A DNA stretch of 52,447 nt from Gammaproteobacteria bacterium (GTDB taxonomy: Bacteria > Pseudomonadota > Gammaproteobacteria > HK1): positions 1 through 52,447 of the forward strand of contig JAJFJV010000036.1 of assembly GCA_021773635.1 (NCBI GenBank), in the 5' to 3' direction. Both the position numbers and the translations under genes were made by a program. Under the pieces are notes generated by a model. The model made no database searches. It worked only from the letters and a program-made list of their open reading frames with translations, and was not told where the DNA came from. Positions 22,005 to 37,130 of this stretch are shown here, piece after piece; the first letter of the stretch is position 1; every line of letters starts with the position of its first letter.

Positions 22005-23384
22005 CTATACGTGAACAATCTCAAATCTTTCATAAAGTGACCCTAGATTTCCCGACTTTATTCTAAATTGGCTTCTACGCTTAGTTTTTGGGTGATTTCC
22101 TGATTCATTCTCAAGCTTAATGCCGGGGTCGTAGTACACCTCCCCAATAGAAATTGCAGTCAATAGATTTCTAAAATCCGCACCACTTCCAAGTTTTACC
22201 CACTTACCATACTGATACTTACGTACTTTATTTTTATGTGATAGCGACGGAATATACACTGCTTGACCGTGTTTTCTTTTCCAATGATTAATTAATTTTT
22301 CGTAATGCCAAATTGCTGCAGGAGAACCATCCTCTGCAACCAAGGTTATTCCACCGTATCCATCTGAAATCTTCTTTGAGGACGGATCGAAGCCATCGAG
22401 AACAAGTTTTAAATTAGTTAATTTATGCGTTAGTCCAACCTTATGAATTCCACCAAAATTAAGTCGGTCTGGCCTACCTCTTCTGTCGGGATAGCCATAT
22501 TTTCTGATAAACGCCTCAACTCCCTCCTCCTTGTAAAATCCCCCTGTAGGTTCTGGTGTCATTAATGTAATGACCTTGGTATCTGTTTTTTCAAAGGACG
22601 CAACACCAAACTGTTTCACTTCCCAGCCCAGAAAGTCCGGCTCTGCCTTGCTATTTGGAGTTATTCCCAGCTCAGCCTCCAGGGTATAACCTCCACAATT
22701 TGGATTATTGCAAGGTGCTATTGTCCTGTCCGCCCTAAGCTTTTTTCCGGTTATCCAGCCTTTCTCACTAATTCTTTTTAGTTCCGAAAGCAATGCCGAT
22801 CTAGAAGTACGTCCAAAGCCCGCGTCCTGAATTAGGATTTCAATAAATACTCCGCATGGCGCATGGCTATCAAGACCTCTTGCTTGTTCCGCGGCGATGG
22901 ATTCAGGGCTTGCTAGATAGCTCACGACAGCTCCGCCATCTCTTATGCCTATAAATAATACGCGACCTTCATCTCGCCCCCGTTTTGTTGGATTCATCAA
23001 CGTGCTTGGGGCCATATCACAACCCTGCAGAAAACCAGAAAATCGCACCTCTGGGTATTGTGGATAGAGTATTAATTGAGCATATGGAGCTAAACACAAA
23101 TTACCATCGTGACTCATCCAGTAAAGCGTCATGGGGGCATGTAATTTAACAGAATCGTGACGAACAGATTGTTTGAGAGATGTGGTTGGCGTGACTTTAA
23201 AATCCCCTGTCGGAATCATGCTGATGGAGGTAACATCCGGTCCAACATAAACCTGATTCTTACTATTGTCATTCGGAGATAGCAGCTTGAAATAGATCTT
23301 TGTAACCTCATTTCCAGCCATCATCAATATTAATTTATCAAGGTCAATCTGATTGTCATTTGTCTGATCCATTGAATTATCCAT
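22005..23384 (-). CDS. MvaI/BcnI-family type II restriction endonuclease with N-terminal extension
   Basis: 459 residues. The C-terminal part (about 230-459) is an MvaI-like nuclease: TLEAELG at 234-240 (Glu236), then AEPDFLGWEVKQ with Asp250, Glu255 and Lys257 forming the PD-(D/E)xK site. Recalled MvaI numbering (Asp50, Glu55, Lys57) differs by exactly 200, so about 200 residues have been added at the N-terminus. That extension (IYFKLLSPNDNSKNQVYVG, YPQYPEVRFSGFL) looks faintly like the EcoRII effector domain. MvaI cuts CCWGG, and the linked Dcm and Vsr fit that site. The start overlaps the vsr stop (TAATG). Lower GC than flanking genes suggests transfer. Confidence 0.87.
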   Translation of the reverse strand: MDNSMDQTNDNQIDLDKLILMMAGNEVTKIYFKLLSPNDNSKNQVYVGPDVTSISMIPTGDFKVTPTTSLKQSVRHDSVKLHAPMTLYWMSHDGNLCLAPYAQLILYPQYPEVRFSGFLQGCDMAPSTLMNPTKRGRDEGRVLFIGIRDGGAVVSYLASPESIAAEQARGLDSHAPCGVFIEILIQDAGFGRTSRSALLSELKRISEKGWITGKKLRADRTIAPCNNPNCGGYTLEAELGITPNSKAEPDFLGWEVKQFGVASFEKTDTKVITLMTPEPTGGFYKEEGVEAFIRKYGYPDRRGRPDRLNFGGIHKVGLTHKLTNLKLVLDGFDPSSKKISDGYGGITLVAEDGSPAAIWHYEKLINHWKRKHGQAVYIPSLSHKNKVRKYQYGKWVKLGSGADFRNLLTAISIGEVYYDPGIKLENESGNHPKTKRRSQFRIKSGNLGSLYERFEIVHV

Positions 23385-23851
23385 TATTTCCTTAAAGTCT
23401 TAAGTCCCTTGATTTCGTCTCTCGGAAGAATTCCATTTAGCCATCTATCAGCCTTGTCTAAAACACTGTCTATGGGTCGTCGTTCAGGACCTTTTATTGC
23501 ACACTCCCATACCGTAAGTACACGCCATTCGTTCGATAGTAACTGGGTGATATTTATTTCATCACGAGCCTTGTTGTTATTGATCTTTTCTTTCCAGAAC
23601 TCATGATGAGTTGTTGGCCACTTAAATAAACCGCAATCATGTCCATGCCAGAAGCAGCCATGAACAAATATTACGGCGTTATGTTGCGGGAATATAAGGT
23701 CCGGGCTTCCGGGTAGTCGTTTGTCGTGCAGGCGGTAACGGAAACCTCTGGCAAAGAGTCCCTTTCTTATTAATAGCTCAGGCTTCGTATTCTTACTCCG
23801 GATGCCTGCCATCATCCGGCTGCGCGTCTTTTTGTCTACAACATCCGTCAT
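23384..23851 (-). CDS. vsr: Very short patch repair endonuclease Vsr
   Basis: 155 residues. Nicks 5' of the T in T:G mismatches formed when 5-methylcytosine deaminates at Dcm sites. Key residues match E. coli Vsr numbering: Asp51 (GSPDLIF), His64 (VHGCF) and His69 (CFWHGHDC), with zinc ligands including Cys66 and Cys73. The start codon overlaps the dcm stop by 4 bp and its own stop overlaps the endonuclease start, so the three genes are translated as a unit. A Vsr beside the methylase implies that it methylates C5 of cytosine. Confidence 0.95.
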   Translation of the reverse strand: MTDVVDKKTRSRMMAGIRSKNTKPELLIRKGLFARGFRYRLHDKRLPGSPDLIFPQHNAVIFVHGCFWHGHDCGLFKWPTTHHEFWKEKINNNKARDEINITQLLSNEWRVLTVWECAIKGPERRPIDSVLDKADRWLNGILPRDEIKGLKTLRK

Positions 23852-25116
23852 TGCATAAACAGTGCTTGCTGACGTCCATTAGTGGTGTCTGTATCTTCGA
23901 CTTTTAGCGCCATGATAAACGGCTTCATGATACGGGCTACTTCGGTAACAACCGGGACAACGACACCATTACCAAACTGTTTGTAGGCGCGAGTGTCAGA
24001 TACGGGAATAGTGAAATGTTCTCCAGCATTCTCGTAGCCCATTAATCGAGCGCATTCTCTGGGGGTCAGGCGTCTCGGATTTCCACGCCCCCTTGATACC
24101 AGAATTTCAGAGCCATCCTTGTAGTATCTGGCTGACAGTGTTCTGGAAACAGATTTCTTAGTTACAAGTCCAAAGCCAAATCCATTACCTGCCTTTCGAT
24201 GCTTTTCAGCATAGCCTTGCAAATAACTCCATAGCTTATCGCTGAGTATGTATTTTCCATTAACCTTTGCTAGGGCTCCGACAGTGTAAGGGCCCTCGGT
24301 TTGTTCAGAGCCATCTTGGGGGTGAAGCACATCTGCCATGATCTTTTCATCCTTATTCGGCAACTGCAGAGCTCCCCAGCTAAACTCAGTGTCTTCACGG
24401 AAACCGGCTATAAAAATACGCTCGCGATGCTGAGGTACAAAGCCCTTAGCATCAATGACGTTTGAGAATACTTGGTAGCCCAGCTCTTCCTTCAGCGTTC
24501 TGAGAATTACCTTGAGGGTATTGCCCTTATCATGACTCCTGAGGTTCTTAACATTTTCAAGCAGAAAGGCCTTTGGCCTTTTTTCTTTGATAATCCTGGC
24601 GACATCGAAAAACAGGGTTCCCTGTGTCTCGCATTCAAATCCGTGTTTGCGACCCAGTGAGTTTTTCTTGGATACGCCAGCAATAGAAAACGGTTGGCAG
24701 GGAAAGCCGGCCAGCAATACATCATGGTCTGGGATGTGTTTTGCGTTAACCTGTGTAATATCGCCCGCAATTTCATGATCCACTGTAAAATTATCGAGGT
24801 AGGTTTTCCGGGCATACTTATCCCACTCACTGGTAAATACACAGTGACCGCCATGTTCTTCAAAGCCCATGCGCATACCGCCAATCCCGGCAAATAGATC
24901 GATAAAGCTGAAGTCGTTTCCGGTTGGAGCACGCTGACCTTCGGTAAACAGCATTTGTTGAAGGCCTAGAACTGCATACTTTGGTGGCCCGTCTTCCCGT
25001 ACTTCCCAGCGTTTGATAGTTCTGACATCCCGATCGATATAATCGGCTATTTCCTGCTGTGTATGGTGATCCCTGAGGCGAGCTAGTATTTCTTGCGGAT
25101 TAACCAGAATATCCAT
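23848..25116 (-). CDS. dcm: DNA (cytosine-5) methyltransferase, Dcm-type, with N-terminal HTH
   Basis: 422 residues. Residues 8-40 (QQEIADYIDRDVRTIKRWE) form a helix-turn-helix of the kind that lets M.EcoRII/M.SsoII/M.Dcm-type enzymes bind their own promoter. Catalytic motifs: I FIDLFAGIGGMR (71-82), IV GFPCQPFS with Cys140, VI ENVKNL (187-192), VIII PQHRERIFIAGF near 230, and X YKQFGNGVVVPV near 383. CCWGG is the likely target, inferred from the MvaI-type nuclease and Vsr. First gene of the cassette, with an inverted-repeat operator candidate 37-62 bp upstream of its ATG. Confidence 0.95.
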   Translation of the reverse strand: MDILVNPQEILARLRDHHTQQEIADYIDRDVRTIKRWEVREDGPPKYAVLGLQQMLFTEGQRAPTGNDFSFIDLFAGIGGMRMGFEEHGGHCVFTSEWDKYARKTYLDNFTVDHEIAGDITQVNAKHIPDHDVLLAGFPCQPFSIAGVSKKNSLGRKHGFECETQGTLFFDVARIIKEKRPKAFLLENVKNLRSHDKGNTLKVILRTLKEELGYQVFSNVIDAKGFVPQHRERIFIAGFREDTEFSWGALQLPNKDEKIMADVLHPQDGSEQTEGPYTVGALAKVNGKYILSDKLWSYLQGYAEKHRKAGNGFGFGLVTKKSVSRTLSARYYKDGSEILVSRGRGNPRRLTPRECARLMGYENAGEHFTIPVSDTRAYKQFGNGVVVPVVTEVARIMKPFIMALKVEDTDTTNGRQQALFMQ

Positions 25117-25152
25117 GGATTAGCCATCCTTCACGATGGTCTGGGAATAAAA

Positions 25153-25178
25153 GGGGACATTATGTCCCTATTGTCCCC
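25153..25178 (-). promoter_or_regulatory. Inverted-repeat operator candidate upstream of dcm
   Basis: GGGACA-TTA-TGTCCC (25154-25168) is a perfect dyad nested in a wider GGGGACA-N12-TGTCCCC (25153-25178), 37-62 bp before the dcm ATG. It resembles the GGACA/TGTCC inverted repeat bound by the N-terminal region of M.SsoII to repress its own gene (recalled). The methyltransferase here has an N-terminal HTH, so autoregulation is plausible. Confidence 0.6.
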
Positions 25179-25260
25179 CAAGTCAATGGCTGTTGGGGTG
25201 GGCTCTTTTTTTGAGGAAAAAAGTAGAGCTTGTATATCCAGCTTTGCCGGGAAGGAAATT

Positions 25261-27444
25261 CTAGTGGCTGGTACGCGGTGGCAAGCCTGTATGTTGGGTT
25301 AGTATCTTCTTTCCACGCGTGCGGCGGTGGTGGGCGGGGGTGGAGTTTTTTCGTCGGGGGGCCTGGTAGACGCTGGTTTCCGCAGGCTGCTCTTTGGGGA
25401 TGAGCTGGTGTTCGCCATCGCCAATGAGATTTGAACGGCCCATCTTTATAAGTGCTGCACGCAGCAGGGGCCAGTTGTTGGAATCGTGATAGCGCAGGAA
25501 GGCCTTGTGGAGTTTGCGTTGCGCAGGGTCTTTGACGGACTCAACGGCATCGCTTTTGTAGCTGACTTTTTTGAGCGGGTTCTTCGCGGTGTGGTACATG
25601 GCCGTGGCGGTGGCCATGGGTGAAGGATAGAAGGCCTGGACCTGGTCGGCACGGAAGCCATTCTTTTTCAGCCACAGCGCGAGGTTGAGCATGTCTTCGT
25701 CGGTGGTGCCGGGATGGGCGGCGATGAAGTAGGGAATCAGGAACTGTTTTTTACCGGCTTCTTCGGTGAATTTTTCAAATAATTTCTTGAACTGGTTATA
25801 GCTGCTGATACCCGGCTTCATCATCTTTGACAGCGGGCCATTCTCGGTATGTTCCGGGGCGATCTTCAGATAGCCGCCGACGTGATGGGTGACCAGTTCC
25901 TTCACGTATTCCGGGTCCTTGACGGCGAGGTCGTAGCGCAGGCCGGAGGCAACCAGTACCTTTTTTATTCCCGGTAAGGCTCTGGTCTCACGATAGAGTT
26001 GGGTCAGTGCCGAGTGGTCGGTATTAAGGTTTGGGCAGATGCCGGGATAGACGCAACTGGGTTTGCGGCAGGCGGCCTCGATCTCACGACTCTTGCAGGC
26101 GATGCGGTACATATTGGCGGTGGGGCCGCCGAGGTCCGAGATGACGCCGGTGAAGCCCGGCACCTTGTCGCGAATATCCTTGACCTCGTTGAGGATCGAT
26201 TCCTGCGAACGATTCTGGATGATACGGCCTTCGTGCTCGGTGATGGAGCAGAAGGTACAGCCGCCAAAGCAGCCACGCATGATATTCACCGAGAAGCGGA
26301 TCATTTCCCAGGCTGGAATCTTTCTATTTTTGTAGGCGGGATGCGCCACCCGCTGGAAGGGCATGGCAAACACGTAGTCCATTTCTTCGGTGCTGAGCGG
26401 GATTGGCGGCGGATTCAGCCAGACGTCCCGACCCTCGTGTTGCTGCACCAGCGCCCGTGCATTGCCGGGGTTGGTTTCCAGATGCAGCACCCGGCTGGCA
26501 TGGGCATACAGGGCCTTGTCGTTGCGTACCTTGTCGAAGGAAGGCAGGCGGATGACGGTCTTTTCCCGCTGCAGTTTTGACCGTTTCAAATCGACGATAG
26601 CTACACCGTTTTCATCCAGGCCAAATTGCTGCGCGTTACGGCGTTGTTGCTCACAATCGCTAATCTCAGGCGTGTTGATATAAGGGTTGACGATGCCGTC
26701 AATCTTGCCCGGGCGATCGATGCGGGTGGAGTCGATCTCCTGAAAGTCCGCCGGGGTATCACGGCGGATAAGGGCGGTACCACGCACGTCACTGATGCTT
26801 GCTATGGCTTCACCCTGTGACAGCCGGTGGGCAATTTCCGCGATGGCGCGCTCGGCGTTGCCGTATAAAAGCAGGTCGGCCTGGGCATCCAGCAAGATGG
26901 AGCGGCGTACGCTGTCCTGCCAATAGTCGTAGTGGGCGATGCGTCTTAGCGAGGCCTCAATGCCACCCAAAAGGATCGGCACATCGGCATAGGCCTCCCG
27001 GCAGCGCTGGCTGAAGACCAGCGAGCTGCGATCCGGGCGTGCACCGCCTTGCCCACCCGGGGTGTAGGCATCATCCGAGCGTGGTTTGCGATCGGCGGTG
27101 TAGCGGTTAATCATGGAATCCATGTTGCCGGCGGTGATCCCGAAGAACAGATTCGGCTCGCCCAACGCCATGAATGGCTCTTTGGAGTGCCAATCGGGTT
27201 GCGCGATGATGCCAACACGAAAGCCCTGGGCCTCCAGCAGCCGGCCGATGATCGCCATGCCAAAAGAGGGCTGGTCCACGTAAGCATCCCCGGTGACGAT
27301 GATGACATCGCAGCTATCCCAGCCGAGCGTATCCATCTCCGCCCGCGACATGGGCAGGAAGTCGGCGGTGCCATAACACTCGGCCCAGTACTTTGGATAG
27401 TCGTAGAGGGCGGTTTTGGCTTTGGGGACGGTGATAGTTGGCAT
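25261..27444 (-). CDS. YgiQ family radical SAM protein
   Basis: 727 residues, full length for YgiQ. N-terminal domain (about 1-340) opens [21 protein letters not shown], with the B12-binding-like fold typical of the family. The radical SAM cluster motif is CFGGCTFCS near residue 385, followed by the TIM-barrel segments [15 protein letters not shown] and [18 protein letters not shown]. The C-terminal about 70 residues are basic and Pro-rich ([19 protein letters not shown]). Reaction unknown. Gene stands alone between the restriction cassette and the copper island. Confidence 0.9.
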
Positions 27445-27578
27445 GGGTATTCTTTCCGGAATCCGGCCATGTTAACGGAAATGGCTGGATGGAGTTCTTT
27501 CCCATGCCGGTCATCGGGATTGAATGCTGTCCGAGCTGCCTGGAGGTAGGGCAGTGCGGTCAAACCGGGGGTTTATTT

Positions 27579-30014
27579 TCAGAGCCGTAACCGCCGTAGC
27601 CGCAGGGCGTTAGTGATCACGGATACCGAGCTGAAGCTCATGGCGGCGGCGGCGATGATGGGGCTAAGCAGCAGACCAAAGGCCGGGTAGAGGACGCCTG
27701 CGGCTACGGGGACTCCGAGCCCGTTGTAGAGGAAGGCAAAGACGAGGTTCTGGCGAATGTTGGCCATGGTGGCGCGGGAGAGTTTGCGGGCCCGCAGAAT
27801 GCCGCGCAGGTCGCCTTTGACCAGGGTCACACCAGCGCTTTCCATGGCCACATCGGTGCCGGTGCCCATGGCGATGCCGACATGAGCCTGGGCCAGAGCG
27901 GGGGCATCGTTGATGCCGTCACCGGCCATGGCGACGGTACGACCCTCGGATTGCAGCTTTTTCACTACTGCGGCCTTCTGGTCGGGCAGTACCCCGGCAA
28001 TGACCTCATCAAGCCCGAGCTGCGCGGCCACCGCGCGGGCAGTGGTTTCGCTGTCTCCAGTAAGCATAACGATGTGCATGCCCTCGGTGCGCAGTGCTTT
28101 GATGGCTACCAGGGCTGTTTTCTTGACCGGATCGGCAACGCCCACCAGGCCCGCTATGGCGCCGTCAACGGTGAAAAACATCACCGTATGTCCTTCGGTA
28201 CGCAAGGCTTCAGCCTGTGCGGCCAATTCCCCTGGTTCGATGCCGAGGTGAGCAAGCAGTGCCACATTTCCCAGCGCCAATTGATGCCCATCTACCTGTC
28301 CGGTGATTCCCTGTCCGGTAATGGACTCGAAGGCGGTTACATCAGTCAGTGCAAGGTTGCGCCCACGGGCACCTTCGACGATGGCTTCTGCCAGCGGGTG
28401 TTCGCTGCCGCGCTCCAGCGAGGCAGCGAGTCGTAACAACCCGTTTTCATCCATCGTGCCCGTGGGGATGATATCCACCAGTTTTGGCCTTCCTTCGGTC
28501 AAGGTGCCGGTTTTGTCCACTACCAGGGTGTCGATGTCGCGCATGACCTCGATGGCTTCGGCATCCTTGAACAGCACGCCCATGGTCGCGCCCTTGCCGG
28601 CGGCGATCATGATAGACATGGGGGTAGCCAGGCCGAGGGCACAGGGACAGGCGATGATCAGTACTGCCACGCCATTGATGATGGCGTAGGCCATGGCGGG
28701 TTCCGGGCCCATCAGCGCCCATACGGTGAAGGTGATGGCCGCCACGAGCAAGACGATGGGTACGAAGTATCCGGCCACTACGTCCGCGAGCTTTTGAATG
28801 GGGGCGCGGCTGCGTTGCGCAGTGGCCACCATCTGCACGATTTGGGAAAGTACGGTATCCGTACCCACATGGCGGGCCTTGATAACGAGACTGCCAATGC
28901 TGTTCACGGTGGCGCCAATGACTTGGTCACCAGCCGCCTTGGCTACGGGAATGGGTTCGCCGGTGATCATGGATTCATCCACGGCGCTGCTGCCTTCGAG
29001 CACCTCGCCGTCCACCGGTATTTTTTCGCCCGGGCGCACCCGCAGCCGGTCGCCAACCACTACCTCCTCCAGCGGCACATCGTTTTCACTGCCGTCGGCG
29101 CCAATGCGGCGTGCTGTTTTCGGCGCAAGGCCTAGCAGCGCCCGGATAGCCGCACCGGTACGTTTGCGCGCCCTCAGTTCCAACACCTGGCCGAGCAGTA
29201 CCAGGGTAACGATGACCGCGGCTGCCTCGAAATACACTGCTACCTTGCCGTGAGTGTCGCGAAAGGATGCCGGGAAAATGTCGGGCAGCAGGGTGGCCAC
29301 CAGGCTGTAGCCATAGGCCACTCCGGTGCCCAGGCCTATCAGGGTGAACATGTTGAGGTTGCGGCTGAGCAGCGATTGCCAGCCACGCACGAAGAAGGGC
29401 CAGCCGCCCCATAGCACCACCGGCGTCGCCAGTATCAGCTCCAGCCAGCCGAGTGTGCGGGCGCTCCCCAGCCACTCAAAGGAAAGTCCCACAACACCAC
29501 CCATGGCAATGATGATCAGGGGAATCGCCAGTACCGCACTGACCTTGAAGCGCCGGCTCATATCGATGAGCTCCGGGTCCTCTTCCTCTTCCAGAGTGAC
29601 GATCATCGATTCCAGCGCCATGCCGCATTTGGGGCAATCGCCGGGCTCGTCCTGTACTACCTCCGGGTGCATCGGGCAGGTGTATTGCGTTTTTGTGGCC
29701 AGTACCGGAATGCCCTCGGGCTCCAGCGCCATACCGCAATCCGGGCAGATTCCGGGGCCTTCCTGGCGCACCTCAAGATGCATCGGACAGGTATAGATGG
29801 CACCAGCAATCACCGGGGCGGGTTCGGGTTTGCGTCCATCCAGATATTGCATGGGCGCGGCGGAGAACTTGTTCAGGCAGCCGTCGCAGCAGAAAAAGTA
29901 ATCTTTGTCTGCGTGGTGAAAGCGGGGAGCTGTTTCGGGGTCTACGGTCATGCCGCACACCGGGTCTTTGGTAGTGGCGTGGTGCTGACAGCAGCTAGTG
30001 CTTTGTTTTTTCAT
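27579..30014 (-). CDS. copA: Copper-translocating P1B-type ATPase
   Basis: 811 residues. Exports Cu(I) across the inner membrane using ATP. Unusual N-terminal metal region: Cys/His-rich start (SCCQHHAT), a YHS/TRASH-like segment ([17 protein letters not shown]) at 17-55, then two CPMH-type repeats at 74-100 and 112-140 instead of classic CxxC HMA domains. CPC lies at 456-458 in membrane helix 6 and DKTGT at 500-504. ATG 30014 is chosen because the CueR-type -10 box ends at 30057; the upstream ATG at 30047 would leave almost no leader. The CueR operator controls it. Confidence 0.92.
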
Positions 30015-30056
30015 GGCAGTAAACACGATAGCGCGCCTTGAGCGCATCCTGTTTAC

Positions 30057-30087
30057 TTTATAAACCTTCCCTTGAGGGGAAGGTCAA
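30057..30087 (-). promoter_or_regulatory. CueR-type promoter/operator of copA
   Basis: On the minus strand -35 TTGACC (30087-30082) and -10 TATAAA (30062-30057) are separated by 19 bp, the over-long spacer typical of MerR-family promoters. The spacer lies within a perfect dyad ACCTTCCC-N5-GGGAAGGT (30064-30084). The same arrangement is found before cueR. Confidence 0.88.
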
Positions 30088-30092
30088 GTTTG

Positions 30093-30632
30093 CTATTTAG
30101 CCAGCAGTTCCCGAATCATGGTTTTGGCTTTTTCGTTGGCCCAGTCGCGGGCACCGATAACGCGCCCGTGAAAGCGGCCGTCGCGGCCGATGAGGTAGGT
30201 AGTGGGCAGGCCGATGATTTCGTAGTTGTTGCGAACTTTGCCGTCGGGGTCCAGCACTACTGGAAAATTGAGTGCAGTTTCGTGTACGAAGCGTTTAACC
30301 TCTTTGGCATTGCCGCGATCGGTAGCGATGGCAATGACGGTGAAGCCTTGATCTTTGAAGCCTTGCCACAGGGCCTCCAGTTGTGGCATTTCGTCCCGAC
30401 AGGGCACGCAGAAGGTGGCCCAGAAGTTGAGCAGTATCAGTTGACCCCGGTAGTCCTGGAGGCGCAATTTTTTACCATCCAGTCCGGATAACTCGAAGTC
30501 GGGTGCCTGGAGACGCTGTTGGGGGGTAACGAGGCCCGGTTCAGGGTGTGCATTTGCCAGTGGGCTATGGACAGTCACCACAAGCACGGCCATCAGCGGC
30601 AAGATATTGAGCCATTTGAAGGCTCTGTTCAT
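30093..30632 (-). CDS. TlpA-like periplasmic thioredoxin
   Basis: 179 residues. Residues 1-28 are a signal peptide ending ANA. The thioredoxin-like fold has active site WATFCVPC with Cys75 and Cys78, a conserved cis-Pro segment GLPTTYLI near 145, and a typical TlpA/ResA insert. Acts as a thiol-disulfide reductase in the periplasm, possibly keeping cytochrome or copper-site cysteines reduced (inferred from context). Its start overlaps the end of the upstream cytochrome gene by 4 bp, so the two are translated together. Confidence 0.9.
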   Translation of the reverse strand: MNRAFKWLNILPLMAVLVVTVHSPLANAHPEPGLVTPQQRLQAPDFELSGLDGKKLRLQDYRGQLILLNFWATFCVPCRDEMPQLEALWQGFKDQGFTVIAIATDRGNAKEVKRFVHETALNFPVVLDPDGKVRNNYEIIGLPTTYLIGRDGRFHGRVIGARDWANEKAKTMIRELLAK

Positions 30633-30925
30633 TGGGCGTGTTGCTTGAGATAGGCGAGGACCAGCGTCTGCTCTTCCACACTCATCTTCCCCATATTACG
30701 ATCCGCAATATGTTTTTCCATCAGCGGCATCATCCTTAGCCAGACATTGTAGGAATACCGTTTGGGATGGGGGATAGCATGGCAACTTCCACAGCGGGCT
30801 GCATAGGCCACGGCAGCTTCCGAAGTGGTTTCTGGCAAGTGAGCCGTGGACGGACCGCTACCCGTGGTGCTGCACGCGGAGAGAGCCATGCCCAAGAGGG
30901 GCAGTAAGCAGAGATGTTTTTTCAT
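30629..30925 (-). CDS. Small c-type cytochrome lipoprotein
   Basis: 98 residues from ATG 30925, with GAGGAG 7 nt upstream. Lipobox LSAC at 15-18 (Cys18). A single haem-binding motif CGSCH is at 45-49, followed by a Met-containing helix (LRMMPLMEKH, RNMGKMS) that can supply the axial Met. A membrane-tethered periplasmic monohaem electron carrier. Neighbours are an outer-membrane barrel upstream and a TlpA-like thioredoxin downstream. The exact redox partner is unknown. Confidence 0.87.
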   Translation of the reverse strand: MKKHLCLLPLLGMALSACSTTGSGPSTAHLPETTSEAAVAYAARCGSCHAIPHPKRYSYNVWLRMMPLMEKHIADRNMGKMSVEEQTLVLAYLKQHAQ

Positions 30926-30936
30926 GCCATTGCTCC

Positions 30937-32106
30937 TCAAAAACCCAGTTTTCCGGAGCCACGCTTTGGCCCCCGCAGGCGTGAACGAACACTTTTAGCG
31001 GTAGGAAGTTCCATATACCAGGTGAGCATCACGCGATAATCGGTTTCCAGTTGCGGACCGTTGAGGTTGCGATACAGCGGCACCCCGACATTGAAGTCGA
31101 GGATATGTAGTGGTGCCGGCTGCCATTGCAGTCCCAGGGTGGCAAAGATGTTGGTGCCGCCATAATTGTTGGTATTCCACAGCGGGGTCATGGCCGGGGA
31201 TGCCGCAGTTCCCTGTACTGCATGGCCCGAAGCGCCACTGGTGAATTCATCCATCTGGCCGCGTATGCGTCCCTGATAATGGCCATTCAACTGCGCCTGG
31301 ACAAGCAAGTTGTGGCGGAACTGGTGCATGGCGTAGGCATCGATGCGGAACTCGTTACCGAGGCGATAATCGCGTTTGTTGTCATGCAGGCGCGCAGTTA
31401 TAGAAGTATTGACTCCCCACCACCACGGCGAGTTAGAGCGCTGATAAAGCAGGCCGATGGTAGGGTCGTAGGTACCAGAACCCAGTTGCATGCCGTAGGG
31501 AAGCTGCTCTCCACGGCGCATGGCAAGTGGATGCTGATCGTTTTTCTCATCAATGGAGCCGGTGGGCAGGCTCAGCCCAAAAAATAGTGATGCCTGGCGG
31601 GAGGGAATAAGCGGGTCGTCGGCGAATAAACGATACTTGCCCATTAACATGGTGTCGCCAATGCCTTTGGACTTCATGGTGAAACCGTTGACTCCGGTCA
31701 TGGCTTTCATGGGGGCGTTGAAACGCATGTCCATGCGCTTGTCCTGATACATCAGCATGATGCCGCCGAAGAGCTTGTCGCTGAAGCTGTAGCCGCCGGT
31801 GAGATTGAGCATGGACATGTCCATCTCGGTCTGTACGGCCATGTACTTACCCGCCGCTGGCATGCCTAACAGGCTGTTGGCGTCCACATCATTGGTACCA
31901 TCCCGCAGGCCGTCCATGCGCATGAACATGGGGCTGACCTTGAAGCGGAATTCGTGGGTCTCAGGGATGCCACCGCCCGGAATATTCATGGGCATATTGC
32001 CGCCGCACTTGCCGCAGCAAAGGCCCACATAGGCCTGGGAATGGGGGGTGTATAGCAATAGGCAGAGTCCCGCAAGCCTCGCTAATGTTCGCCAACTCAA
32101 ATGCAT
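30937..32106 (-). CDS. Met-rich outer-membrane barrel protein of copper island
   Basis: 389 residues from ATG 32106, which has AGGAG 9 nt upstream; the open frame extends to 32193 but without such a site. Signal peptide 1-25 (ends SQA). The mature N-terminus carries Cys30, Cys31 and Cys34 (GLCCGKCGGNMPM), then Met-dense segments such as SPMFMRMDGLRDG, TEMDMSMLNLTGG and MLMYQDKRMDMRF. The rest alternates polar and aromatic residues like a beta-barrel of the phenol-degradation/MetA-like transporter superfamily. The Met-rich and Cys-rich front fits Cu(I) binding. Role as a copper channel or sensor is inference. First gene of the barrel-cytochrome-thioredoxin unit. Confidence 0.78.
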   Translation of the reverse strand: MHLSWRTLARLAGLCLLLYTPHSQAYVGLCCGKCGGNMPMNIPGGGIPETHEFRFKVSPMFMRMDGLRDGTNDVDANSLLGMPAAGKYMAVQTEMDMSMLNLTGGYSFSDKLFGGIMLMYQDKRMDMRFNAPMKAMTGVNGFTMKSKGIGDTMLMGKYRLFADDPLIPSRQASLFFGLSLPTGSIDEKNDQHPLAMRRGEQLPYGMQLGSGTYDPTIGLLYQRSNSPWWWGVNTSITARLHDNKRDYRLGNEFRIDAYAMHQFRHNLLVQAQLNGHYQGRIRGQMDEFTSGASGHAVQGTAASPAMTPLWNTNNYGGTNIFATLGLQWQPAPLHILDFNVGVPLYRNLNGPQLETDYRVMLTWYMELPTAKSVRSRLRGPKRGSGKLGF

Positions 32107-32259
32107 TTTCAAATACTCCTGTACAGCCCACGCGCGGCACCGCGCCGCGGAAGAAGGAGTATATGAGGTGGTGGTAAAGATGGGATGTGACATAGTGCCG
32201 CACCCTGTTAAAATATACTAGTTATATGTATCTTTACGATTTCCCACAAGGTTAACTTT
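32107..32259. promoter_or_regulatory. Divergent promoter region between barrel gene and regB
   Basis: 153 bp between divergent starts. It includes an AT-rich block with a near-palindrome ATATACTAGTTATAT at 32214-32228 that could hold -10 elements for both directions, and a GCGGCACCGCGCCGC segment at 32134-32148 capable of a GC stem. No CueR-type 19-bp spacer promoter is present here, so the barrel operon is probably driven by another regulator, possibly RegA itself. Confidence 0.45.
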
Positions 32260-33549
32260 ATGGATTTGGGCCGACAGTTCCCCCGCAAATCTTGCGGAGA
32301 TGCCAATCTGCGGCAGTTGTTTGTGCTGCGCAATGTCACTGTTGGCGGTGAATTGCTGGTGGTGCTGGGAGCCATTTGGGGGCTGAATCTGGTTTTACCT
32401 GTGTTGCCTATTTCGATGCTTTTGCTGGCGATGCTGGGGCTTAATATTAGTACCTGGATATGCCTGCGCGGGGGACGGGTGGTGGCAGATTGGGAGCTTT
32501 TTGCACAGTTAATTCTGGATGTGTTTGCCTTTTCCATGCTGATGTATCTCACCGGTGGGGCCACCAATCCCTTTGCCTGGTTTTATCTGCTGCCGCTGGT
32601 GATATCTGCCACTTTATTGTCGCCGGGTTATACCCGCATCATGGCCATTTTGACCGTGGCTTGTTACACGGTATTAACCCGTTTTTACCTGCCTCTGCCG
32701 TTGCCAAACGGGGGCGCTATGGAAGCTATGCAGGGAGGTGGTTTTCCTCTGCACGTTTTCGGGATGTGGTTTGGCTTTGTATTGAGCGCGGGACTGATCG
32801 CCCATTTTGTGGTGGGCATGTCGCAATCACTAAAAATACGTGAAGCCCGCCTGGCCGAGGCGCGGGAGCAGGCCTTGCGCGATGAGGGCTTGGTGGAACT
32901 GGGCATGTTGGCCGCGGGTGCGGCCCATGAGCTGGGTACGCCGCTGGGGACTATGGCGATAATCAGTGGTGAATTGCAGCATACCCATGGCGTTGGGGAA
33001 GCACCGGAGGTCCATCGGGCGGCAAGTCTGTTGTTGACCCAAATTGAGCGTTGCAAGGATGCCCTCTCAAGTATCAGTGCATCTGCAGGGGTGGCCCGTG
33101 CCGATGCTGGAGCATCGGCGCAGACGGTGGCTTATCTGGATCAGCTAATGGAAAAATGGCGTGGCAGTCGCTTGGGGGTGAAGGTGAAATACCACCACCA
33201 GCAGGAGAACTCTCCCGGCTATATCCTCTCCGACCGTCTATTAAGTCAGGCACTGGAAAATATTTTGAATAATGCCGCTGATGCCTCACCGGAAGCGGTC
33301 AAGGTGGATGCGCGCCAGCAATCAGGGCAATGGCTGTTAGAGATCAGTGATCGTGGTTGTGGCTTAGGACAGTCGGCGGGAGAGGCGGTGATATCGGGGA
33401 AGGAGCACGGGCTGGGTATTGGTCTGCTGCTTGCTTACGGCAGTATCCGGCGTTTGGGAGGGGAGGTTTCCCATCATCTACGGGTCGGGGGAGGCACCTG
33501 TACGCGAATTAGCTTGCCCCTGATTGAAAGCCCGGCGGTGTGTTCATGA
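32260..33549 (+). CDS. regB: Redox-sensing histidine kinase, RegB/PrrB-like
   Basis: 429 residues. Six hydrophobic helices fill about 30-190, with the quinone-site heptad GGATNPF at 99-105 between helices, the hallmark of RegB. H-box AAHELGTPLG places the phospho-His at His223. A Cys in the segment QIERCKDAL (Cys265) lies where RegB has its redox-active cysteine. ATPase motifs: N-box LENILNNAADAS (332-343), G1 DRGCGLG, G2 GLGIGLLLAYG. Senses quinone or thiol redox state and phosphorylates the adjacent regulator, whose ATG overlaps this stop codon. Confidence 0.9.
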   Translation: MDLGRQFPRKSCGDANLRQLFVLRNVTVGGELLVVLGAIWGLNLVLPVLPISMLLLAMLGLNISTWICLRGGRVVADWELFAQLILDVFAFSMLMYLTGGATNPFAWFYLLPLVISATLLSPGYTRIMAILTVACYTVLTRFYLPLPLPNGGAMEAMQGGGFPLHVFGMWFGFVLSAGLIAHFVVGMSQSLKIREARLAEAREQALRDEGLVELGMLAAGAAHELGTPLGTMAIISGELQHTHGVGEAPEVHRAASLLLTQIERCKDALSSISASAGVARADAGASAQTVAYLDQLMEKWRGSRLGVKVKYHHQQENSPGYILSDRLLSQALENILNNAADASPEAVKVDARQQSGQWLLEISDRGCGLGQSAGEAVISGKEHGLGIGLLLAYGSIRRLGGEVSHHLRVGGGTCTRISLPLIESPAVCS

Positions 33550-34082
33550 ACAGTGGTGCCCACCTGTTGGTGGTAGACGATGACGAGGTCTTTGGGCAGG
33601 TGCTCGGTGGTGCTCTCGAGGCTCGTGGCTTTCAGGTCAAGGTGGCGCAAGACACAGAAACTGCCATCGAACACGTGGATACCGAACGCCCAGGTTATGC
33701 GGTGATCGATCTGTGTATCGGTGAGGACTCCGGCCTGTTGCTATCGGAACGTTTGTTGGCCATTCATCAGGACCTGCGTATTCTGATTCTGACTGGTTAT
33801 GCCAGCGTGGCCACTGCGGTGGCTGCCATCAAGCTCGGGGCCATCCATTATCTGAGCAAACCCGCCGGGGTCGACGAAATCCTGGCCGTTTTGAGTCAGG
33901 GACCAGGGGAGCCCGAATTACACCCCGAACGCCGTCCGGCGTCATATAAACGGCTGGAGTGGGAGCATCTGCAAAAGGTGTTGCAGGCCCACGATGGCAA
34001 TATCTCTGCCGCCGCCCGGGCGATGAATATGCACCGACGTACGCTACAGCGGAAGCTGAGAAAGCGCCCAGTAACTCACTGA
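33546..34082 (+). CDS. regA: Response regulator RegA/PrrA-like
   Basis: 178 residues. Receiver domain with the acidic pocket DDDE at 11-14, phospho-acceptor Asp55 (VIDL), Thr83 and Lys105. The C-terminal FIS-type helix-turn-helix (about 138-175) has the RegA-like recognition stretch AMNMHRRTLQRKL. Starts at ATG 33546 inside the regB stop (ATGA), with an alternative GTG at 33540. In Rhodobacter RegA controls respiration, carbon fixation and other redox genes (known). Its targets here may include the divergent barrel-cytochrome operon (inferred). Confidence 0.9.
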   Translation: MNSGAHLLVVDDDEVFGQVLGGALEARGFQVKVAQDTETAIEHVDTERPGYAVIDLCIGEDSGLLLSERLLAIHQDLRILILTGYASVATAVAAIKLGAIHYLSKPAGVDEILAVLSQGPGEPELHPERRPASYKRLEWEHLQKVLQAHDGNISAAARAMNMHRRTLQRKLRKRPVTH

Positions 34083-34088
34083 TATTAT

Positions 34089-34676
34089 TCAGCCGTCCAG
34101 ATGAGAGCGGATGAGTTTCAGTGCCGCCGGGCTATCCCACTCGGCGGGGCCCAGCAGGCGGCCGATCTCACGGCCTTCACGATCAATCAGCAAGGTGGCG
34201 GGGACGCCGAGCACCTTTAAGTCTTGGGGGGCGCGGAAGGATACATCCAGATAAGGGTTGAGCGCTTTCAAATTTAGCTCTCTGAAGAAATCCTGAACCT
34301 CCTCAATCTGCTGGTCCAGCGAGAGGGTAAGCACTTCAAAATCCTTGCCTCCCAGGGTTTCCTGCAGATGATTCAGGGTCGGCATTTCCTCCCGGCAGGG
34401 CCCGCACCAGGTGGCCCAGAGATTGAGCAGCACCAGTTTGCCGCGGAAGTCATCCAGGCTCAGCGGTTTTTTATCACCGTCGATGAATTTCAGGGTCGGG
34501 AGCGGTGCGCGCTGGGTGCGCGCGACAAAGCCAAAGCCATCGGGCGCGGGGGGTGCCTTGGTAGCCGGCGCCGGTATGTGCATTGGCGGCGCCGTTTGCA
34601 GGGCGAACTGGCTCCACAGCACACCGACGACGAAGCCAGCGACTGCGAGGATGCTGATGGCATATCGGGTTTTCAC
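34089..34676 (-). CDS. TlpA-like thioredoxin, membrane-anchored
   Basis: 195 residues from GTG 34676, which overlaps the preceding stop by 4 bp (GTGA); a longer frame begins at 34727 but lies within ccmG. An N-terminal membrane anchor (about 7-25) is followed by a Pro/Ala-rich linker to about 58, then the thioredoxin domain with WATWCGPC (Cys91, Cys94) and GVPATLLI near 162. Periplasmic thiol reductase. Co-translation with ccmG suggests work in cytochrome c assembly or in reduction of copper sites. Convergent with regA, 6 bp away. Confidence 0.88.
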   Translation of the reverse strand: MKTRYAISILAVAGFVVGVLWSQFALQTAPPMHIPAPATKAPPAPDGFGFVARTQRAPLPTLKFIDGDKKPLSLDDFRGKLVLLNLWATWCGPCREEMPTLNHLQETLGGKDFEVLTLSLDQQIEEVQDFFRELNLKALNPYLDVSFRAPQDLKVLGVPATLLIDREGREIGRLLGPAEWDSPAALKLIRSHLDG

Positions 34677-35239
34677 TGGGGCCTTGGCTCCTTTTTCTGT
34701 GCACGTAGTTTTTGAACCAGTGGCCACAGCTTTTGTTCCCAGGCCTCGATGGTTAATTCACCAATTTGCTTATAGGCAATGCGACCTTGCTGATCGATGA
34801 GGAAGGTCTCCGGCACCCCGTATACACCCCAATCAATAGAGATCCGGCCATCGCGGTCCGCACCGATACGGGTATAAGGATCACCCAGTTCGGCCAGCCA
34901 GGCCGAGGCGTCCCCGGGTTTGTCCTTGTAGTTGATGCCGTGTACCGGGATGGTGCCGTTACGCTTGAGGCGCATCAGGAGCGGGTGCTCATAGCGGCAG
35001 GCGGTGCACCAGGAGGCGAAGACATTTACCAGACTGACCTCACCTTTGAGATCAAGGTGGGCTAGTCCGGGGTTCTCGCGACCCGCTATGGGCGGCAGCT
35101 CAAAATCCGGCACCGGTTTGCCGATGAGTGGCGAGGGAACCTCGCGGGGATTGAGGGTCAGTCCAATGGCAAGAAAGGCAACCACCGCGATGACAAGCAG
35201 TAGTGGCAGGGCGGTGAGCAGGGGGGAGCGCTTGGACAT
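34673..35239 (-). CDS. CcmG/DsbE-like thiol:disulfide interchange protein
   Basis: 188 residues from ATG 35239 (MSKRSPLL...). Anchor helix 7-28. GKPVPDFELPP (40-50) is typical of CcmG. Active site ASWCTACRYEHP with Cys78 and Cys81, and the CcmG block INYKDKPGDASAWLAELGDPY plus GVYGVPETFLID follow. Normally reduces apocytochrome c cysteines for haem attachment. No other ccm genes are here, so it is either a stray or an accessory copy serving the two local cytochromes (inference). Ends in a 4-bp overlap with the next thioredoxin. Confidence 0.9.
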   Translation of the reverse strand: MSKRSPLLTALPLLLVIAVVAFLAIGLTLNPREVPSPLIGKPVPDFELPPIAGRENPGLAHLDLKGEVSLVNVFASWCTACRYEHPLLMRLKRNGTIPVHGINYKDKPGDASAWLAELGDPYTRIGADRDGRISIDWGVYGVPETFLIDQQGRIAYKQIGELTIEAWEQKLWPLVQKLRAQKKEPRPQ

Positions 35240-35290
35240 TGAATGGGGTGCTTTGGTCAACGATTCGGCAAGTATAACCCGCCCTGCCAA

Positions 35291-35815
35291 CTAACCTTTA
35301 TGATGCATGCCGCGTTTCCAGGATTGGTAGATTTCCCGGGACCAGAAGTTCTGGAACCAGGCGATCATGGCTTCGATCTGGGCGTCACTCAACTGGGCGC
35401 CAAAGCCGGGCATGCTGCCACCTGGTGGAGAGCCGTCACGGATCTGGCGTTTGATCATGGGCAGCGGGTGGTGCCAGGCATGGGCGCTGCCATTGAGTGG
35501 AGGGGCGGGATAGCGGCCATCGGCGCCGCGTTGGCGCCAGCGGAAATCGCCCTGTGCCTCTTTGCCGTGACAGGCAGCGCAATAGGTGGCAAACAGGGGT
35601 GCGCCCTGCTCGACCTGTGCCGCGGTGTACCAGCGCCCCGTCTTTGCTGTACCCCCTGTACTTTCCTGATCTGTTGCCGGACTGGCGTGCATACCCATTC
35701 CGTCACCCGTACCCATTCGACCCATGTGGTCATCGTCACTACAGGCGCCCAGGCTCGTGAACACGATAAAAAGCGGTACGGTCCACAGCATCTTTTTTAA
35801 CCCAGGATTCATCAT
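35291..35815 (-). CDS. c-type cytochrome lipoprotein
   Basis: 174 residues from ATG 35815 (an ATG three bases later is also possible). Lipobox SLGAC gives Cys25. The next about 30 residues are rich in Met, Asp and Gly (MGRMGTGDGMGMH), which may bind copper. The haem motif CAACH is at 79-83 in a class I cytochrome c domain with PAPPLNGSAHAWHH and a Met in GSMPGFG as probable axial ligand. The start overlaps the cueR stop by 4 bp, so expression should follow CueR. Similar domains serve as electron donors or acceptors in the periplasm. Confidence 0.88.
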   Translation of the reverse strand: MMNPGLKKMLWTVPLFIVFTSLGACSDDDHMGRMGTGDGMGMHASPATDQESTGGTAKTGRWYTAAQVEQGAPLFATYCAACHGKEAQGDFRWRQRGADGRYPAPPLNGSAHAWHHPLPMIKRQIRDGSPPGGSMPGFGAQLSDAQIEAMIAWFQNFWSREIYQSWKRGMHHKG

Positions 35816-36210
35816 TCTTCTCCGGTACTCGCGAGTTGGTCGAGGATGGGGCATTCCGGGTGTTCATCACCATGGCAGCGTTCGGCCAGATCCCGCAGCA
35901 CCTCACGCATCGCTTCGAGGTCCCGTATGCGTGCTTCTACCTCTTCGATATGGCGGCGAGCGAGACTTTTTACCTCACTGCTTGCACGCCCCTGATCACG
36001 CCACAGGGAGAGCAGATGAAGGACGTCCGACACACTGAAACCGAGGCCTCGCGCCTGCTGAATGAAGCGCAGGGTCCGAAGGTCATTTTCCTCGAAAACC
36101 CGGTAACCATTGGCGGCACGGCTGGCAGGCGGCAGCAGGCCAATGCTCTCGTAATAGCGAATGGTTTTGGCAGAGACCCCTGAGCGTTTCGCCAGCTTGC
36201 CAATATTCAT
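35812..36210 (-). CDS. cueR: Cu(I)-responsive MerR-family regulator CueR
   Basis: 132 residues from ATG 36210. N-terminal winged HTH (MNIGKLAKRSGVSAKTIRYY), then a long dimerisation helix. The metal loop is CHGDEHPEC with Cys112 and Cys120, the same spacing and numbering as E. coli CueR, which supports this start over ATG 36219. The absence of the extra cysteines of ZntR or MerR argues for Cu(I)/Ag(I). Heads an operon with the cytochrome lipoprotein, ccmG-like and tlpA-like genes. The promoter at 36244-36274 carries its own operator, so it is autoregulated. Confidence 0.93.
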   Translation of the reverse strand: MNIGKLAKRSGVSAKTIRYYESIGLLPPASRAANGYRVFEENDLRTLRFIQQARGLGFSVSDVLHLLSLWRDQGRASSEVKSLARRHIEEVEARIRDLEAMREVLRDLAERCHGDEHPECPILDQLASTGEE

Positions 36211-36243
36211 GGTGCGCATACCCCATACAGTTTCTCTGTACAG

Positions 36244-36274
36244 AAAATAAACCTTACCGTTACGGGAAGGTCAA
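36244..36274 (-). promoter_or_regulatory. CueR-type promoter/operator of cueR
   Basis: Minus strand: -35 TTGACC (36274-36269), 19-bp spacer, -10 TATTTT (36249-36244). The dyad ACCTTACC-N5-GGGAAGGT (36251-36271) differs from the copA dyad by one arm base and the spacer core. The shared architecture ties copA and the cueR operon into one regulon. Confidence 0.88.
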
Positions 36275-36294
36275 GTTTTTCGGGGTAGGGAAGG

Positions 36295-36370
36295 TGGTGC
36301 CGGCGCACGGGATCGAACCGCGGACCTGAGGTTTACAAAACCCCTGCTCTACCAACTGAGCTACGCCGGC
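36295..36370 (-). tRNA. tRNA-Thr (UGU)
   Basis: Minus strand: acceptor stem GCCGGCG pairs with CGCCGGC. D-arm GCTCAGTTGGTAGAGC. Anticodon loop TTTGTAA gives UGU, reading ACA. T-arm GCGGTTCGATCCCGTGC. CCA is encoded at 36297-36295. It sits between the cueR promoter and the SPOR-protein gene. In many Gammaproteobacteria a Thr tRNA follows birA-coaX before tuf (recalled), so synteny beyond it is broken here. Confidence 0.97.
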
Positions 36371-36437
36371 CCTGATTGCCGGAAGATTCTGAATCGCCGG
36401 CGGCCGGGATTGTAGGTAAATCCCCCTGGCTAGGCAA

Positions 36438-37130
36438 TTATGAGACAGCCGGGCAGCTTGCGGGTGCGGCCTCGATTTCAGGGAACAGGGAGGCGAAGGC
36501 AGCTACGGGGAAGTCAAAGCCGGCAGCGAAACTGACATCCATCCAGGCGGCCTTTACGGTGCGATAGCGCGGCGTGACTTGTGGTTCATAACCCCGACGT
36601 TGCAATTGTTTAATACGCCGGTCGACTGATGCCCGGCGGTTGTAGACACCCAGGGAGATGGCATTGGTCATATCCCCGCGGGGCACTACCAACAGGTCCC
36701 GCAGGCCTTTGCCGCGGAGCCTGGTTACCAGGGCTATAGCATCGGTACGGCTGTTTCGGGGCGGAAGAAAGACCCAGTAACGGGTGAGTTCGCGGCGTTC
36801 GTCGGTGTGCAGGCGGACCTTCATTCCGCGCTCTTCCAGCCAGTTTTTTAGTCGAATGGTCTGTCCATCAGCACCGATGGGCCCGAGACGATAGCAATTG
36901 AGTTTAGTCTGTGCCGGGGCAGTTCCGGTGTCTGGTGGCTGTTCGGTGGGAATGGCTCGTACTCGCAGCTCGGCCGGATTGACCTCACTGAGGAGTTGCA
37001 GCCGGCTGGTGTGGTCGGCCAGGGAAAGCTCCACCGGTATTGGTGCGGGAGGCGGGGGCTCCAGATCGCGTATGCGGGTGGAGAAAAAGAGCACATTGGC
37101 AAGCAGAATGAAGTAGATAACCCACTTCAC
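36438..37130 (-). CDS. SPOR-domain-like membrane protein
   Basis: 230 residues. One N-terminal membrane helix (MKWVIYFILLANVLFFS), a Pro-rich linker (EPPPPAPIPVE), then a C-terminal domain of about 140-205 that resembles the SPOR peptidoglycan-binding repeat (LVVPRGDMTNAISLGVYNRRASVDRRIKQLQRRGYEPQ is the core, abbreviated here: DMTNAISLGVY, then RRIKQLQRRGYEP). Such proteins bind denuded glycan at the division septum. The start overlaps the coaX stop by 4 bp, so it is in the birA-coaX operon. Confidence 0.82.
   Translation of the reverse strand: MKWVIYFILLANVLFFSTRIRDLEPPPPAPIPVELSLADHTSRLQLLSEVNPAELRVRAIPTEQPPDTGTAPAQTKLNCYRLGPIGADGQTIRLKNWLEERGMKVRLHTDERRELTRYWVFLPPRNSRTDAIALVTRLRGKGLRDLLVVPRGDMTNAISLGVYNRRASVDRRIKQLQRRGYEPQVTPRYRTVKAAWMDVSFAAGFDFPVAAFASLFPEIEAAPASCPAVS

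Follow-up and report, generated by a model that had tools for sequence, protein, structure and literature searches.

A candidate copper module built on a methionine-rich outer-membrane barrel, and its union with a CueR-type unit in one gammaproteobacterial genus

The copper-related locus at positions 27579 to 36274 of contig JAJFJV010000036.1 (Gammaproteobacteria bacterium, assembly GCA_021773635.1; the whole 52,447-nucleotide stretch that was analysed is called the window below) is best read as two units that interlock in a single genus. One is a widespread module of three genes, encoding a methionine-rich outer-membrane barrel, a mono-haem c-type cytochrome lipoprotein (Cyt2) and a TlpA/ResA-like thioredoxin (TlpA2), which here adjoins the redox-sensing pair RegB/RegA (RegBA). 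The other is a unit seen here in this genus only, with the Cu(I) regulator CueR, the export ATPase CopA, a second cytochrome (Cyt1), CcmG and a second thioredoxin (TlpA1). On balance we favor, by a modest degree of confidence, a function in which the barrel is a RegA-controlled outer-membrane channel for Cu(I) served by a cytochrome/thiol relay, joined here to CueR/CopA export and to cytochrome c maturation. The module probably handles copper; the metal itself, the direction of transport, the flow of electrons and the binding of RegA and CueR are what we infer.

A widespread module and a genus-specific unit

Starting from copA, the minus strand carries copA, tlpA2, cyt2 and barrel; regB and regA follow in plus orientation, after which tlpA1, ccmG, cyt1 and cueR again lie on the minus strand. 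Comparison with relatives separates its two parts. Barrel matches occur in 87 of 369 genomes of the class. Sixteen of these count as close, with identity of 60% or more and E below 1e-150, and the others are distant; in the close genomes the barrel gene is followed by cyt2 and tlpA2, mostly divergent from regB and regA. The full island including CueR and CopA was found only in the window's genome and its two genus mates, G015 and G016. When 35 stretches from other genomes were compared with the window's proteins, high-identity CueR plus CopA appeared in two, again the genus mates; the weaker matches were a MerR-type protein in L063 (35%), CopA-like proteins in L047 and L051 (26-31%) and short matches of 30-35 residues in L056 and L066.

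A collection search, in which the best 80 of 195 confirmed relatives were kept, gave 78 named loci, of which 75 (L072-L146) are of the window's type. They are labelled as Gammaproteobacteria, Zetaproteobacteria, Nitrospirota, Nitrospinota, Deltaproteobacteria, Spirochaetes and Candidatus Scalindua/Brocadiaceae; 74 of the 75 titles say metagenome-assembled genome (MAG), whose labels may be wrong in places. CueR is present in two of these loci, both from genus mates, and strong CopA in four (the two genus mates, L092 and L102), counts that are lower bounds, many loci being incomplete. In the 63 loci with at least 1400 bp downstream of the barrel (12 with less were left out), a cytochrome follows in 59, a TlpA-like protein in 57 and both in 54, and eight of the nine loci without the full pair belong to Scalindua/Brocadiaceae. 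Two of these nine, both Candidatus Scalindua loci (L134, 11070-12029; L135, 11030-12010), encode a dihaem cytochrome and a TlpA domain in one protein beside the barrel, a fusion which suggests that the two act together. A plasmid search returned five records, all distant (28-30% identity), and the close module was not found on them.

RegB (E at most 1e-30) is present in 119 of the 369 genomes versus 15 of the 16 with a close barrel, the exception being G250. In 11 of the 16, no more than 5 kb separates it from the barrel: the window's genome, G015, G016, G051, G242, G193, G091, G368, G310, G162 and G273, the last counted because one contig holds RegB and part of a barrel. The two are on different contigs in G092, G087 and G026, and G314 has RegB as well.

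A sequence-only reading of the window had set the gene-neighborhood comparison beforehand as part of its refuting test, and gene order proved to be conserved in relatives. What these comparisons do not bear out is its picture of one copper, thiol and cytochrome island ruled by CueR, with RegB/RegA as an embedded extra. Two near-identical CueR boxes do flank the block, the whole block with its boxes is common to both genus mates, and CueR adjoins a Cyt1-like cytochrome in three (L176, L191 and L193) of 27 CueR loci that were retrieved from beyond the genus. Against this, barrel, Cyt2 and TlpA2, often with RegBA, recur without CueR, and the barrel has a conserved dyad of its own and no CueR box before it, which leaves the single island with the slightest chance of the explanations considered here. 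Its broader suggestion that copper and redox inputs meet at this locus is plausible in the form of two adjacent regulons, as far as gene order and promoter motifs can tell.

The methionine-rich barrel

The mature N-terminus of the barrel follows the pattern G-[LIM]-CC-x-[KH]-C-GGNMP in 74 of the 75 loci (67 with GLCCxKC, five with Ile or Met, and two Spirochaete loci with GLCCLHC), and the remaining locus is cut off before the motif; the N-terminal motif segment reads CCGKCGGNMPMN. In an alignment of 44 mature barrels, 22 columns are at least 70% methionine and 14 hold methionine only, and cysteine is conserved only at positions 5, 6 and 9. These 44 were drawn from 51 full-length barrels holding [VL]GLCC, so that their invariant GLC is partly a product of selection; the checks of the motif on 14 sequences and on the 74 loci were unselected.

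An AlphaFold2 model of the 364-residue barrel (mean pLDDT 88.6, with low values for the first 20 residues) finds its best fold matches among 12-strand barrels, namely the COG4313 channel 4rl8 (Z 25.5 over 253 residues at 2.3 A) and FapF (5o65, Z 24.2), with PcoB (7pge) at Z 12.3 and rank 46. No sequence relative was found in the PDB at E 1. The Pfam family of PcoB/CopB was not matched, PF13557 being the only match at E 0.01, nor was a plug domain family found, and the barrel does not qualify as a TonB-dependent copper receptor, which would have a plug and 22 strands.

In each of the first five strands the methionines stand on one face only (35/37/39, 70/72/74, 92/94/100/102, 119 and 128/130). 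That face is the more conserved one in all five, also when the methionine columns are excluded (0.88/0.57, 0.78/0.63, 0.82/0.46, 0.93/0.56 and 0.85/0.80 for strands 1 to 5), but it is clearly more polar only in strands 1 and 5. This single conserved methionine face suggests, on the model, a lumen lined by methionines. The N-terminal segment of 4rl8 is folded into its lumen (PMC4493636), and by that parallel the cysteine motif would sit in the lumen as well.

Promoters of the two units

The CueR boxes before copA and cueR both consist of TTGACC, a 19-bp spacer and a downstream element, TATAAA for copA and TATTTT for cueR. Their 21-bp dyad has two sites in the window with zero mismatches, where shuffling gives an expectation of 0.16 at up to two mismatches. 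Across the 2.55-Mb genome the 27-base promoter core has exactly these two sites at up to three mismatches, with no third CueR-type promoter found, and the reversed control has one. The boxes recur in both genus mates, where that of G015 fits the pattern and that of G016 is slightly altered. Pattern searches of window and genome gave no CueR box for the barrel operon. The sequence-only reading had described promoters of this type with near-identical dyads before copA and cueR and had placed both under CueR; the first claim is borne out by reading and pattern counts, the second is supported by the boxes and their retention in the genus mates. Control of copA and of the cueR operon by CueR is thus very likely, as judged from these boxes.

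The cueR operon includes ccmG. A whole-genome search gave a single CcmG over the cut-off, the copy in this operon; the other matches were the two TlpA proteins of the locus and one weak partial match. The remaining maturation genes lie elsewhere: ccmA to ccmE, read by eye, stand at the end of contig C19 (L213), and on contig C9 (L212, 4757-8456) a ccmF-type gene (CcmF/NrfE-type, TIGR00353, 767 bits, cut-off 569) overlaps directly a ccmH-type gene (CcmH/NrfF-type, best match TIGR03147, 116 against a cut-off of 159) with no ccmG between them, followed by a ccmI-like gene (by eye). The only full-length ccmG of the genome therefore appears to be under CueR. The genome also has two PF00115 genes (haem-copper oxidase or nitric oxide reductase type), which makes a need for copper probable. 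Durand in 2015 reportedly described copper toxicity to cytochrome assembly.

The barrel has a different element. In relatives the interval from regB to the barrel holds a common GCGACAAATTGTCGC, in many cases with a second GCGACAnnnTGTCAC directly behind it. The counterpart in the window is GGGTGCGGCACTATGTCACATCCC, whose dyad contains the ATG of a 418-residue reading of the barrel gene. Because this upstream ATG lies inside the conserved dyad and relatives align from 32106, the barrel probably starts at 32106 and not at 32193.

We scored the dyad as at most one mismatch to GCGRC-N5-GYCGC upstream of the barrel. Among close loci, 22 of 23 that have RegBA nearby carry it, versus 11 of 31 without; a first count of distant loci of class B gave eight of eight with RegBA versus four of ten without. 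Five class B loci stood outside that count: L066, with RegBA, has an exact match, L057 (with RegBA), L063 and L071 have none, and L053 gave no sequence; in all, nine of the ten class B barrels tested beside RegBA have the dyad. Anchoring of the upstream intervals on [VL]GLCC excluded 22 of the 75 loci. A later test of 21 of them (L142 lacks the N-terminus) found the dyad in L077, L082, L123 and L139, the last a different-looking GC match, and no dyad in the other 17. A weaker form, GTGAC..GTCAC, occurs in L100, where RegA is present, and in L092.

The same association holds when loci are sorted by the presence of RegB anywhere in the genome: 27 of 30 genomes with RegB have the dyad versus three of 20 without (p 1e-7; 50 loci, leaving out the genus mates L072/L073, L146 and the 22 unanchored loci). 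L086, L095 and L107, which have the dyad and no RegB in the genome count, and also L080, have RegB or RegA matches beside the barrel, and recounting these four as RegBA-bearing gives 30 of 34 versus none of 16. The split follows phylogeny, so that the p-values are not independent of kinship. The element is also specific in position, since 13 of the 15 exact GCGACN5GTCGC sites in 460 kb fall within the 8.3 kb of upstream intervals, and the single site of a control palindrome lies elsewhere. Hence, on the evidence of this motif, the barrel-cyt2-tlpA2 genes are probably switched by RegBA. A RegA regulon beyond the locus is not claimed: genome-wide, the relaxed dyad is rarer than its reversed control.

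The kinase and regulator are RegB-like and RegA-like, with best families NF033792 (206 bits) and NF033791 (172.5 bits), under the curated equivalog cut-offs of 350 and 250. The quinone motif and redox cysteine of the window's RegB are those described in PMC8191878; all 22 related RegB proteins keep GGXXNPF and 19 of them the cysteine, so that sensing through quinones and thiols is possible.

All ten genes and both CueR-type promoters named in the sequence-only reading are present by reading and profile searches (Table 1), and its gene set of barrel, cytochrome lipoproteins, TlpA proteins, RegB/RegA, CueR, CopA and CcmG was correctly identified. CopA reaches 602.3 bits (TIGR01511, cut-off 397), with an ACPC motif, and no HMA domain is among the families listed for it in the profile search. 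CueR scores 160.3 bits (cut-off 147.4), CcmG/DsbE 165.2 (TIGR00385, cut-off 123.15) and the barrel 32.6 (PF13557, gathering score 22). Both TlpA/ResA-like proteins score under the cut-offs of named subfamilies, and both c-type cytochromes have lipoboxes, read by eye. No Sco match over the cut-off was found among the ten proteins of the locus.

Table 1. Coordinates of the features of the locus (positions in the window unless another sequence is named)
Feature	Position	Strand	Basis and remarks
copA, Cu(I)-type P1B ATPase	27579..30047	-	YHS and two HMBD domains; profile searches; likelier start ATG at 30014, by eye
CueR-type promoter of copA	30061..30087	-	TTGACC, 19-bp dyad spacer, TATAAA; also in genus mates
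tlpA2, periplasmic TlpA/ResA-like thioredoxin, CVPC	30093..30632	-	Profile searches; conserved third gene of the module
cyt2, mono-haem c-type lipoprotein, CGSCH..PHP	30629..30940	-	Conserved second gene of the module; lipobox LSAC and likelier start 30925, by eye
Methionine-rich outer-membrane barrel, COG4313/PF13557 class	30937..32106	-	YVGLCCGKCGGNMPMN motif after signal peptide
GC-rich exact match to GCGRC-N5-GYCGC	32134..32148	-	Position differs from the conserved element; may be chance
RegA-type dyad (candidate) GCGGCACTATGTCAC	32187..32201	-	One mismatch; counterpart of the relatives' conserved element
regB-like sensor kinase	32260..33549	+	GGATNPF quinone motif, HELGTP box, ERCKD cysteine
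regA-like response regulator	33540..34082	+	His at the place of PrrA's Cys, just before the helix-turn-helix (HTH)
tlpA1, TlpA-like thioredoxin, CGPC	34089..34727	-	Profile searches
ccmG/dsbE	34673..35290	-	Sole match of the genome over the CcmG/DsbE cut-off; likelier start 35239, by eye
cyt1, CBB3-type mono-haem lipoprotein	35291..35854	-	Met/His-rich N-terminus; likelier start ~35815, by eye
cueR, Cu(I)-responsive MerR-family regulator, C-x7-C	35812..36219	-	TIGR02044 above cut-off
CueR-type promoter of the cueR-cyt1-ccmG-tlpA1 operon	36248..36274	-	Pattern search
TonB-receptor insertion	L037 10333-14927 (L037/L073); L093 5393-9138 (L044/L093)		Genomes of different families

A tRNA-Thr gene ends beside the cueR side of the locus. 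Integration at this tRNA is not claimed, since the stretches of the genus mates show no tRNA (that of G015 ends close to cueR) and no repeat of tRNA-Thr is among the repeats listed for window positions 25000-36500. Also beside the island, at 22005-25116, are genes resembling a restriction endonuclease, a Vsr-type nicking enzyme and a cytosine methyltransferase, and farther off, at 7936-8959, two adjoining near-duplicate bacteriohaemerythrin-like genes; these were named by eye.

Proposed function and its alternatives

Some neighbors of the module in relatives point to copper. A PCuAC gene stands within 10 kb of the barrel in eight of the 75 loci, five times on the same strand just after tlpA2, and a Csp1-like storage protein in four, always on the same strand and near the barrel; one of each was confirmed (PF04314, 100.9 bits; TIGR04401, 117.8 bits, cut-off 100). 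Eight zetaproteobacterial loci have a divergent DsbC (one confirmed), and seven Scalindua/Brocadiaceae loci have a small, secreted, cysteine-rich protein upstream of the barrel. A small secreted protein of a different kind lies just upstream of the barrel in 11 zetaproteobacterial loci, and no Pfam match was found for the secreted proteins upstream of the barrel in L137 (9156-9581) and L110 (9454-9891). On Ruegeria plasmids (L214, L216 and L217, three viewed of four matched) a distant class B barrel is divergent from ccmF-dsbE-ccmH-ccmI, and genes for DsbD-domain proteins, cytochromes or multicopper oxidases are near some of these barrels. For the thiol part there is a precedent, TlpA reducing copper-binding cysteines before metallation (PMC7558416).

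The following mechanism would join these elements. RegA would switch the barrel-cyt2-tlpA2 genes at the GCGAC-N5-GTCGC dyad, transcription leading away from regB and regA, and RegB would match the output of the module to the redox state of the quinone pool. The barrel would be a methionine-lined channel whose N-terminal CC-x-x-C-G-G-N-M-P probably binds and passes Cu(I), with TlpA2 keeping its three cysteines, a putative gate, in the reduced state, and the haem lipoprotein Cyt2 giving or taking an electron, either for the Cu(II)/Cu(I) couple or for thiols. In the second unit, CueR would sense cytoplasmic Cu(I) and turn on export by CopA. It would also induce the methionine-rich cytochrome, CcmG and TlpA, so that cytochrome c maturation would rise with copper. 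CueR/CopA together with CcmG, TlpA1 and Cyt1 would then be the arm for copper excess in the window's genus.

Other functions could be built on the same parts. The barrel and its partners could be a device for outer-membrane export or periplasmic detoxification of copper, similar to PcoB/CopB, and not an uptake channel. The module does sit with CopA export in the window's genus, PcoB is among the fold matches, and genes named by eye as CusB-like are near three loci and as RND pump family near five. Uptake is favored by PCuAC, which delivers copper to oxidases and so suits supply (PMC7558416), by the regB-barrel interval of two genomes, which holds a TonB receptor, a BNR-repeat protein, a TlpA-like protein and a TonB-type gene, and by RegBA, which normally governs respiration. 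We regard export as unlikely. The TonB receptor of L073 was considered as a copper receptor and is far below that family's cut-off (TIGR01778, 31.5 versus 472 bits).

The same architecture is reminiscent of a small porin-cytochrome conduit for electrons, in extracellular electron transfer or iron oxidation, in which the methionines would serve haem docking or stability. The cytochrome after the barrel in 59 of 63 loci would fit, as would RegBA, a respiratory redox system, and the names of carriers such as Mariprofundus, Thiogranum and Scalindua, which we take to be chemolithotrophs. This possibility is weakened by the single CxxCH in the window's Cyt2 and in those Cyt2 proteins from outside Scalindua that were read (Scalindua has two), by the failure of the window's Cyt2 to qualify as a multihaem partner, and by the conserved methionines and cysteines and the PCuAC and Csp1 neighbors, which favor copper. 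It seems to us less probable still than export, if a shade better placed than the single island.

Several observations weigh against a RegA-controlled Cu(I) channel. As to structure, the orientation of the methionine face to the lumen comes from strand parity and not from coordinates, the two faces differ little in polarity in strands 2 and 3 and in the opposite sense in strand 4, and the solved COG4313 channel was judged unlikely to pass hydrophilic molecules (PMC4493636). As to regulation, the dyad of the window has one mismatch, and the support from shuffling (1/40) belongs to the GC-rich second match; no dyad with up to one mismatch was found in the RegB genomes L118, L119 and L124, nor in L100 beside RegA and in L057 of class B. 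Genome-wide the relaxed dyad shows no enrichment, with 21 sites versus 71 for the reversed control, and chromatin immunoprecipitation sequencing of PrrA gave no strong consensus (PMC4263372). Rhodobacter RegA has a copper switch through Cys156 (PMC9147068). From its place before the HTH helices this is the Cys of PrrA (1umq), to which His is aligned in the window's RegA, and among the 18 readable of 22 relatives the residue is His in 14, Asn in three and Cys in one; copper sensing through this residue was therefore rejected for the window's RegA, as a switch like that of Rhodobacter cannot work likewise here. As to distribution, CopA and CueR are rare beside the module, nearly all members are MAGs, and the members tested outside Gammaproteobacteria mostly have the module without a RegB match. 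Finally, the metal could be iron, because RegA of Methylomonas directly activates iron uptake (feo; PMC13274454) and a distant barrel on a Methylosinus plasmid adjoins feoB.

The components of the locus are of known kinds, a COG4313 subfamily, a RegBA target and a CueR regulon. With the COG4313/PF13557 channels (Pput2725, 4rl8; FapF, 5o65) the barrel shares the fold and a segment N-terminal to strand 1. Those described so far have been connected with hydrophobic uptake (PMC4493636) or amyloid secretion (PMC5557850), and unlike them the barrel has methionine-rich strands, the conserved CC-x2-C N-terminus and an operon with a cytochrome and TlpA. RegB and RegA share with PrrBA, ActSR and RoxSR the quinone motif, the redox cysteine, the HELGTP box, a Fis-type HTH and a candidate GCG inverted repeat, but score under the NCBIfam cut-offs, mostly have His at Cys156 and adjoin a dedicated candidate target. 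The CueR unit has the CueR over cut-off, the promoters with 19-bp spacers and the CopA of a classical CueR/CopA regulon, to which its cueR operon adds a cytochrome, the only full-length CcmG of the genome and TlpA. From the TlpA/Sco/PCuAC delivery of copper to cytochrome oxidase the module has TlpA, with putative copper-binding cysteines, and PCuAC in some loci; it differs in that the target cysteines would lie on an outer-membrane channel and that no Sco scores over the cut-off. The suggested passage of copper through the outer membrane is a point in common with the TonB-dependent copper transporters OprC/NosA and CrtA, of which OprC has Cys/Met ligands and is regulated by CueR (PMC7558416). 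The window's barrel differs from these in having no plug domain and is itself no TonB receptor; one is present, as an extra, only in L073 and L093. Among the titles and abstract beginnings listed in searches of one open-access collection, we found no description of a barrel-cytochrome-TlpA module or of RegBA beside one.

A bolder reading, which we hold tentatively and with more doubt than belief, is that the module represents an undescribed kind of metal channel in the outer membrane, coupled to electrons. In it a COG4313 barrel, lined by methionines, gated by three conserved cysteines and worked by a dedicated Cyt2 and a TlpA, would reduce copper and move it without TonB; it would be switched by RegBA and, in the window's genus, tied through CueR to the sole CcmG. 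If true, copper and cytochrome c assembly would be regulated together through CueR and this CcmG, and the presence of ccmG in the CueR operon would couple cytochrome c assembly directly to copper. The acquisition of copper through the outer membrane is poorly characterized (PMC12914433). A small, conserved module of three genes with a RegA-type site offers a testable candidate for it in several phyla, and may connect quinone redox sensing with thiol chemistry and copper in concrete terms.

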